DNA of 6,239 nt, taken from positions 43,347-49,585 of the forward strand of contig MGQK01000041.1 of the NCBI GenBank assembly GCA_001797815.1, read 5' to 3'. Source of the DNA: Deltaproteobacteria bacterium RBG_13_61_14 (lineage in GTDB: Bacteria; RBG-13-61-14). Positions 2 to 1,799 of this stretch are shown here, one piece after another. A program made the position numbers and the translations under genes. Position 1 is the first letter of the stretch; each line of letters opens with the position of its first letter. The notes under the pieces are model-generated. The model searched no databases and had not been told where the DNA came from. It saw only the letters and a program-made list of their open reading frames with translations.

Positions 2-781
2 GAGGTGATCACCGCCTTTCTGCCCCGCGCCGCGGACCTGGACGGGAAGCTCCAGGAGTTGCGCACCTACCTGGCCGGCCTGCGCCGACTCTGGCCAAAG
101 TCCGCCTGGGGCGAGCTTGAGACCCGGACGGTGATTGAGCAGGACTGGGTGGAGGAGTGGAAGAAGAGCTTCAGTCCCATGCCGGTAGGCGAGCGCTTCT
201 GGGTGGTGCCGACCTGGCGGGAGGTGCCGGAGCCGGCGAAACAGCCGGGCCGGCTCGTGATCCGGCTCGATCCGGGAATGGCCTTCGGCACCGGGCTGCA
301 CGCCAGCACCCGCGCCTGCCTGCGTCAGGTGGAAACCCTGGTCCCGGAGCGGGCGCGTTCGGTGCTGGACCTGGGCACCGGCTCCGGCATCCTGGCCATT
401 GCCGGCCGGATGCTGGGCGCGGACCGGGTCTTGGCCGTGGACCTGGACCCCGCGGCGCTGGAGGTGGCCCAAAAGAACGCGGAGATTAACGGGCTTTCCG
501 GGATCGAGTTCCGGGCCGGAGGCGCGGACCCCGAGGCCCGGCTCAGCGATCAGCCTTTTGATTTGGTGCTGGCCAATATCTTTGCCAACGAACTCATCCG
601 GCTTAAGCCCCTGCTCTTGCGCCACCTGGCCCCGGCCGGCCGGCTGGTCCTGGCCGGGATTTTGTTTCAACAGGCGGAGGAGGTGGAAGCGGTGTTCCAG
701 CCGGCGGCCCTGCGCCTGGTGGAGAGACCGCGGGAGGAAGAATGGGTAACCTTGATTTTCGAGCTTGGTGTCAGACACTGA
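2..781 (+). CDS. prmA: Ribosomal protein L11 methyltransferase, 5'-truncated by the window
   Basis: SAM-dependent methyltransferase that methylates ribosomal protein L11 in the cytoplasm. The reading frame is open to the left edge, and the first possible start (GTG at 5) is probably an internal Val, since PrmA proteins are usually about 290-310 residues and only about 259 are visible here. Counting that GTG as residue 1, the end of the N-terminal substrate-binding domain and linker (WKKSFSPMPVGERFWVVPTW, 52-71) leads to the PrmA hallmark DPGMAFGTGLHAST (89-102). Next come SAM motif I DLGTGSGILAIA (122-133), the acidic ribose-binding strand AVDLDP (144-149) and the ANIFANEL motif (190-197). 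The end, EEEWVTLIFE, is family-like, but the final LGVRH and the TGA stop lie inside the left repeat of the neighbouring transposon, so the native C-terminus has been replaced by a few element-derived residues. Activity is probably kept, because the catalytic core is untouched. Confidence 0.95.
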   Translation, partial: EVITAFLPRAADLDGKLQELRTYLAGLRRLWPKSAWGELETRTVIEQDWVEEWKKSFSPMPVGERFWVVPTWREVPEPAKQPGRLVIRLDPGMAFGTGLHASTRACLRQVETLVPERARSVLDLGTGSGILAIAGRMLGADRVLAVDLDPAALEVAQKNAEINGLSGIEFRAGGADPEARLSDQPFDLVLANIFANELIRLKPLLLRHLAPAGRLVLAGILFQQAEEVEAVFQPAALRLVERPREEEWVTLIFELGVRH

Positions 782-794
782 CTTATGACTTAAG
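762..794 (+). repeat. Left terminal inverted repeat of the transposon
   Basis: All 33 bases are the reverse complement of 1767-1799. Within it lie overlapping small palindromes: GTGT-cag-ACAC (768-778 core), TCAG-aca-CTGA (771-781) and CTTA-tgact-TAAG (782-794). There is also a GACTTA doublet. Such foldback ends suit a transposase that recognises single-stranded hairpins. The repeat encodes the last five residues and the stop of prmA. Confidence 0.9.
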
Positions 795-839: not shown

Positions 840-1778
840 ATGGGCAGACCTACACGAGTTGAATTCCCCGGCGCGATCCACCACGTTACCGCGCGCGGTA
901 ACGACCGGAAAGCTATTTTTTTCTATGACGACAACCGCAAGAATTTCCTCGATTTGCTCGACCGCGCGGCTTCACGCTTCCGCCTGGAAATTTTCGCTTT
1001 CTGCCTGATGACCAATCACTATCATCTTTTTCTCCGCACGGCCGAGCCCAACTTGGCGGCTGCGATGAAATGGCTGAACGGATTGTATTCCGCCCGCCTC
1101 AATCGCAGCCGGAACCGTTCCGGCCACCTGTTCCAAAACCGTTACCATTCGGTTTTGGTTACTAAGGAGCCTCATTGGCTACACTTGTCCATGTATCTAC
1201 ATTTGAATCCGGTGCGGGCGGGGATGGTCCAGGATCCGTGCGAATACGAATGGTCCAGCTTCCGTGATTACATCCAAACCCGATCACGCTTTGATTGGCT
1301 TTGTCCCCAGGAAGTGCTCTCCCAGTATGGAGCCACCCCGAATGAGCAGCGCCGACAATATCGCCGGGACTGCTTGGGGTTCGCCGGAGTGGGGCCAAGC
1401 TTCTGGAAGCAGCTGTTGAGTGAGGTTGGACTAGGAGTCCAAGTGGTGAGGGCCGGCCGGGCCAGTGGACCCTCTCCTCCCTTAAGTCATAAGTCAGTGT
1501 CTGACACTAAAGGAACCGACGTGGAGACGGAGCTGAGGCGAGTGGCAACAGTTTTTAGGGTGGAGCCTCTATCCCTGCTGCGCCGAAGAAGCCGGAATTT
1601 CCCGGCGCGACTCGCGGCCTACTATCACCTGGTTGAACATTGCGGGATGGATGTTAGGGCCGTGGCGAAAACTATGGCGGTAAGCGGCTCAGCAGTGAGT
1701 CGGGGAATAAGCCGATTCAAGAAAATGATGGAGAGCGCTCCGGCTTGGAAGAAAGCCATCCATGCGCTTAAGTCATAA
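840..1778 (+). CDS. REP-associated (RayT-like) Y1 transposase with C-terminal DnaA-like helix-turn-helix
   Basis: HUH-superfamily nuclease expected to cut and rejoin single-stranded DNA at its element's hairpin ends through a 5'-phosphotyrosine. The N-terminal 1-145 is a Y1 transposase domain: opening PGAIHHVTARGNDR (10-23), the metal-binding HUH pair H60/H62 in MTNHYHLFL, and the catalytic tyrosine Y119 in MYLHLNPVRAG, which aligns with the tyrosine of the YIYINPVKHG motif of E. coli RayT. After a linker comes a second domain (about 226-303), RVATVFRVEPLSLLRRRSRN onward, resembling the C-terminal double-strand DNA-binding domain of DnaA that some members of this family carry. Residues 214-223 of the linker are encoded by the internal repeat copy. 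The last codons and TAA stop fall in the right terminal repeat, so the gene fills the element to its edge. No ribosome site is visible before ATG 840, suggesting weak or leaderless translation. The frame is intact, so it is likely functional. Confidence 0.92.
   Translation: MGRPTRVEFPGAIHHVTARGNDRKAIFFYDDNRKNFLDLLDRAASRFRLEIFAFCLMTNHYHLFLRTAEPNLAAAMKWLNGLYSARLNRSRNRSGHLFQNRYHSVLVTKEPHWLHLSMYLHLNPVRAGMVQDPCEYEWSSFRDYIQTRSRFDWLCPQEVLSQYGATPNEQRRQYRRDCLGFAGVGPSFWKQLLSEVGLGVQVVRAGRASGPSPPLSHKSVSDTKGTDVETELRRVATVFRVEPLSLLRRRSRNFPARLAAYYHLVEHCGMDVRAVAKTMAVSGSAVSRGISRFKKMMESAPAWKKAIHALKS
1481..1507 (+). repeat. Third copy of the terminal repeat, inside the transposase gene
   Basis: The 27 bases are identical to 1767-1793 in the same orientation, and are therefore inverted relative to the left end. 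The copy is read in frame as part of the linker (residues 214-223, LSHKSVSDT region). The right-end copy is read in a different frame, where it gives LKS-stop. Identity stops at 1508 (T instead of C). Confidence 0.9.
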
Positions 1779-1799
1779 GTCAGTGTCTGACACCAAGCT
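1767..1799 (+). repeat. Right terminal inverted repeat of the transposon
   Basis: Perfect reverse complement of 762-794. It holds the last three sense codons and the TAA stop of the transposase (1776-1778). The base next outward on each side (761 G, 1800 G) no longer pairs, which fixes the outer limit of the symmetry. Confidence 0.9.

Follow-up and report, generated by a model that had tools for sequence, protein, structure and literature searches.

The window analysed here, 6,239 nucleotides from the draft genome of Deltaproteobacteria bacterium RBG_13_61_14 (contig C41, 43347-49585), contains the 3' part of prmA followed by an element of about 1 kb. This element is a TIRtron, that is, a gene for a Y1 (HUH) transposase with a DnaA-like C-terminal domain lying between its own terminal inverted repeats (TIRs). 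A third copy of the element's end lies inside the transposase gene itself. Sequence comparisons suggest that a solo end unit probably landed in the linker between the two domains of the transposase, and that the protein has remained full-length and probably active.

The window contains three exact copies of the 27-mer CTTAAGTCATAAGTCAGTGTCTGACAC, at 768-794 on the minus strand and at 1481-1507 and 1767-1793 on the plus strand. No further site was found in the window at up to 3 mismatches, and shuffled sequence gave 0 sites. These counts bear out the first-pass annotation of this DNA, which had described a 27-bp copy identical to the right end, placed between the Y1 and DnaA-like domains and read in a different frame from the end copy. 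The codons of the internal copy, TTA AGT CAT AAG TCA GTG TCT GAC ACT, specify L215-T223 of the 312-residue open reading frame (ORF) in the only forward frame that is free of stops. At the right end the repeat is read in another frame, CTT AAG TCA TAA, whose last codon is the stop of the gene. Compared with the right end, the internal copy matches over 30 bp, the single mismatch being T at 1508 and C at 1794. The outer base is C in 55 of 62 ends across all families and in every other copy of the element's repeat family, but both ends of one relative family carry T, so that the T at 1508 neither proves nor excludes a loss of cleavage. Since a 33-bp repeat is shorter than the usual assembly words, misassembly of the internal copy is unlikely.

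The same repeat is dispersed through the source genome, a 132-contig draft in which the genome-wide counts rest on searches. The 25-mer core of the repeat has 11 sites there at up to 3 mismatches, compared with 0 for the reversed control, and one extra copy with a 1-bp insertion is present on contig C11. Besides the three copies belonging to the element, nine are solo. In four solo copies both arms of the palindrome have changed together, from GTGTC..GACAC to GTGCC..GGCAC, indicating that the palindrome is maintained. All nine are intergenic or lie across a gene end, each no more than 18 bp from the 3' end of a gene as called by simple codon-usage predictions, and several of them supply the stop codon (e.g. 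...GARH-stop and ...VPGTDL-stop), as the left end does for prmA. The internal copy is the only family member deep in coding sequence. The 25-mer was found neither in viral contigs (0 sites) nor in 97 other genomes (0 sites). Solo end units L029, L032, L034, L035 and L024 and the unit at prmA (762-781) lie at gene 3' ends, often supplying the stop, with short tails such as GARH or GVRH.

The source genome encodes 12 full-length transposases of the TIRYT (TIR-associated tyrosine transposase) kind, each with its own ends, and a gene with flanking TIRs is the layout common to 31-35 relatives; two comparison genomes are of the same order. Among 35 TIRYT-type loci with identifiable TIRs, two pairs of which are duplicate entries of one gene, the window gene is alone in containing a copy of its own end (24/24). 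At the remaining loci, the best internal similarity to the locus's own end is 12-16 of 22-24 positions, which equals background. Alignment of homologues thus reveals a genuine own-end copy that is unique to the window gene and lacking at the 34 other loci. The first-pass annotation had allowed that the identity might reflect protein constraint, with linker residues conserved in homologues whose ends differ. Instead, the linkers of the relatives are similar in length and different in sequence, and the same DNA recurs at the nine other sites.

The transposase matches Pfam Y1_Tnp (E 1.9e-11) and scores 79.9 bits against NCBIfam REP_Tyr_transpos, 0.1 bit under the cut-off of 80; residues H60, H62 and Y119 are invariant in 14 relatives. 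An AlphaFold2 model built on the alignment of these 14 relatives has a mean predicted local distance difference test score (pLDDT) of 81.5, with residues 197-224 below 50. Foldseek returned as its top match 4er8, the E. coli RAYT-hairpin complex (E 1.5e-6), and matched the C-terminal domain to 3pvp_B, the DNA-binding domain of M. tuberculosis DnaA (85 columns, 1.4 A root-mean-square deviation, E 0.038, TM 0.80 to target). A profile search gave a weak match to DnaA 8btg over the residues of the same domain (E 0.011), and Pfam Bac_DnaA_C is matched by 3 of the 14 relatives, with weak E values only. The RAYT match, the DnaA-like fold and profile and the low-pLDDT linker together place the domain boundary at the internal copy, which in the model is located in a disordered linker between a RAYT-like Y1 domain and a domain resembling DnaA domain IV. 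Identity to the closest paralogue is 11% in the linker, compared with 65% and 56% in the two domains. Of the lineage changes, the window protein has 22 in the Y1 region, 9 in the linker and 5 in the C-terminal domain, and this paralogue (59% identical) has 11, 1 and 4. The DnaA-like domain is still constrained, as conserved as it is in the nearest paralogue, which suggests that the full-length protein is still selected and probably functional as a whole.

We propose that, of the single end units that have spread through the genome as solo repeats, one entered the transposase linker, displacing about a dozen codons of unconserved sequence. The relatives' linkers, being of similar length and other sequence, argue that the unit replaced linker sequence and was not simply added to it. 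The insertion would have been tolerated because the unit is read in its sole stop-free forward frame and lies in a disordered region. The outcome would be a full-length, probably active protein, with its predicted recognition site present in complete form a third time within the gene. The identity of the copy, its dispersal, its uniqueness among relatives, its position in the linker and the continued conservation of the C-terminal domain are shown by the sequence comparisons and the model. The unit may have been moved by the transposase itself or copied by template switching, and the protein is presumed able to bind it. Several points weigh against the proposal. The nearest relative is only 59% identical and the state before insertion is not visible, and replacement is deduced from length (312 residues, compared with 315-318 in most paralogues). 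In addition, the outer T, where all other family copies have C, means that the copy may not be a normal cut-and-join product, and the transposition itself is presumed.

A possible, though less likely, origin is template switching or gene conversion with one of the element's two ends, right or left, as the donor, in place of a transposase-driven solo insertion. The match to the element's own ends over 30-31 bp with one mismatch fits such an event, as does the absence from the internal copy of the outer C that every other copy has. A repeat-like linker, such as the K-H-E-S-V of the paralogue, could have given the microhomology, and the H, S and V of the paralogue linker align with the H, S and V of the internal copy; however, this agreement involves few residues and an uncertain alignment. 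Moreover, the solo copy at C107:38199 also has the CCTTAAG flank, so that the donor is not distinguishable.

In each end of the element, CTGACACC is accompanied by two heptamers in tandem and by a short palindrome. In 31 families from the source and other genomes the ends follow the plan heptamer-heptamer-NNN-CTGACCCC, and their self-similarity at lag 7 is 0.484, compared with 0.272 when shuffled (z 9.0). The two tandem heptamers of an end are family-specific and adjoin CTGACCCC (e.g. 1483-1496, 768-794). Across 29 families, taken as exchangeable in the Mantel test, heptamer similarity correlates with C-terminal-domain similarity after correction for Y1 (partial Mantel r 0.21, p 0.016), whereas the reverse correction leaves no correlation with Y1 similarity (r 0.01, p 0.44). 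These correlations lend modest support to the idea that the DnaA-like domain reads the heptamers; Quentin et al. 2018 (PMC6006769) do not settle what this domain recognises. The left terminal repeat of most close relatives is followed on its inner side, at a constant short spacing, by the start of a sigma-70-like -35 box (TTGACA), which suggests that end binding would allow the gene to be repressed; the window element's own promoter is weak by the same measure. Single-strand folding of the ends yielded weak hairpins only, those of the element not being distinguishable from shuffles (z about -1), and Rfam gave no match.

It is improbable that the internal copy has been retained as a putative self-control site, acting as a roadblock or by titration. 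The co-variation of the heptamers with the C-terminal domain and not with Y1 implies that the protein probably binds such sites, and the promoter inside the left end of most close relatives is placed where end binding could repress it. However, no relative has the internal site, so that it is not a general control device, and the left end already adjoins the promoter. Because it does so in most close relatives, the left end is a better candidate for self-control than the internal copy.

A functional internal end is very unlikely, in either of the forms that the first-pass annotation had put forward. As an alternative right end, the copy would allow 762-1507 to move alone as a catalytic-only mini-element, and it does present complete heptamers and the palindrome in right-end orientation. 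The genome lends no support to this mobility, as neither 795-1480 nor the whole element nor its Y1 half has a further match there above 71% DNA identity over any long stretch; the outer base also differs from the usual C, and the mini-element would contain no in-frame stop. In the other form, recombination between the direct copies would switch the full-length protein to a catalytic-only one without the DNA-reading domain, which we consider similarly far-fetched. The arithmetic of a deletion between 1481 and 1767 is correct (286 bp lost, leaving a 227-residue protein that ends ...D T K L L A at the TGA of 1807-1809), but no such product was found in the genome. Short Y1 proteins of 221-227 residues do occur (C40, C46); we rejected them as deletion derivatives, since they are about 40% identical to the window protein over the Y1 domain only and have different ends. 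If it were real, a functional internal end would provide the gene with a means of changing between a specific and a relaxed mode of recognising targets.

Protein constraint or chance can be dismissed as the source of the 27-bp identity: a V is conserved near this position in many relatives, but the recurrence of the same DNA at nine places that are non-coding or lie at gene ends, the empty reversed control, the shuffles and the differing linkers across the 35 loci rule it out. The 35-locus comparison (1/35) likewise rules out a general linker site across the family. The copy is also not an older right end predating the domain fusion, as it is missing from the relatives with the same C-terminal domain, within which the window protein is nested.

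The element is present in one full copy in the source genome, and the coordinates of its parts are collected in the table. Its left end, at the 3' terminus of prmA, supplies a new stop (...GVRH-stop); in the relative G002, prmA stops at the equivalent place without the element.

Table. Features of the element and its host gene in window coordinates.
Feature	Position	Strand	Evidence
prmA, partial at its 5' side	2..781	+	TIGR00406 above cut-off; the left end of the element takes the place of the last codons
Left terminal inverted repeat, 33 bp	762..794	-	100% complementary to 1767-1799
Transposase of TIRYT/RAYT type, 312 aa	840..1778	+	Pfam Y1_Tnp; NCBIfam REP_Tyr_transpos
Y1/HUH catalytic domain (Pfam residues 14-119; H60-Y-H62, Y119)	879..1196	+	Pfam, invariant residues, Foldseek
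Predicted disordered inter-domain linker, residues 197-224	1428..1511	+	pLDDT < 50; 11% identity to closest paralogue
Internal terminal-repeat copy, right-end orientation, coding L215-T223	1481..1507	+	Sequence match, genome and shuffle counts
Tandem heptamers TAAGTCA-TAAGTCA in internal copy	1483..1496	+	Heptad periodicity in ends of 31 relatives, lag 7 z = 9.0
Palindrome GTGTC-T-GACAC in internal copy	1497..1507	+	Four solo copies with paired change GTGCC-T-GGCAC
Sole mismatch to the ends within 30 bp	1508	+	T for outer C; synonymous (ACC/ACT Thr)
C-terminal DNA-binding domain resembling DnaA domain IV, residues 228-311	1521..1772	+	Foldseek 3pvp_B; DnaA 8btg profile
Right terminal inverted repeat	1767..1799	+	Overlaps transposase stop TAA 1776-1778

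TIR-type ends are abundant in the source genome (G000). Those of the commoner GGGGTCAGNNCTTNA type number 110, with 0 in the control, and are found singly or in REPIN-like inverted pairs whose members lie only 44-66 bp from each other (e.g. C15:792/858, C33:7965/8009, C53:3854/3898). Locus L080 (C45:3930-4372) is a transposase remnant comprising the C-terminal half only. Directly before it lies an end repeat that belongs to another family and has the right-end orientation, and its own right end comes after it. Locus L081 (C70, near 16044) is an internally deleted derivative resembling a miniature inverted-repeat transposable element, with palindromic GGGGTCAGACCCC ends whose inner motif TTAGATTAAG points the same way in each.

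Di Nocera et al. 2013 (PMC3733652) described TIRYTs whose end repeats are dispersed, and the counterpart of TIRYT/TIRtron in Quentin et al. 2018 (PMC6006769) is TnpA-Y1 subclass 2.1.2. As in those descriptions, the window element combines a Y1 transposase with a DnaA_C-like C-terminal domain and has long flanking inverted repeats, which may be related to GGGGWSAS, with end repeats dispersed as singles and dimers. The window transposase has the Y1/HUH core (H-x-H and catalytic Tyr), flanking TIRs of 33 bp that are 100% complementary, and a helix-turn-helix/DnaA_C-like C-terminal domain recognised by fold and profile. The ends of the window element read GGTGTCAG, one base off GGGGWSAS, whereas its paralogues, like TIRYT/TIRtron elements, have GGGGTCAG; the motif is common to most described TIRYTs and not to all. 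A canonical REP (repetitive extragenic palindromic) foot is absent, there being no GTAG/GTGG (GT[AG]G) adjoining the repeat's palindrome.

Unlike the elements described there for this subclass, the window element has an end copy inside its gene, in an open frame and absent from relatives. In-frame REP insertions within tnpAREP genes of subclasses 2.4 and 2.8 are reported in PMC6006769, and the window copy is similarly a flanking repeat in its own gene, in frame and in a region expected to be tolerant; it differs in lying in an inter-domain linker, in being a TIR-type unit and in being confined to a single gene. PMC3733652 cites Rickettsia palindromic elements and intragenic REPs, which are likewise short palindromic repeats read in frame within an ORF, but in unrelated genes, whereas the window copy is in the gene for the very enzyme that is presumed to mobilise it. 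An end unit at the linker of a DnaA-domain TIRYT appears to be unreported in these two papers, supplementary files aside, and a literature search on TIRYTs and TIRtrons found no others. The window gene is clear evidence, at the level of sequence, that individual end units of the DnaA-domain TIRYT class disperse alone and can enter coding frames, including that of their own enzyme, and it offers a natural three-site substrate for asking which parts of the ends the Y1 and DnaA-like domains read.
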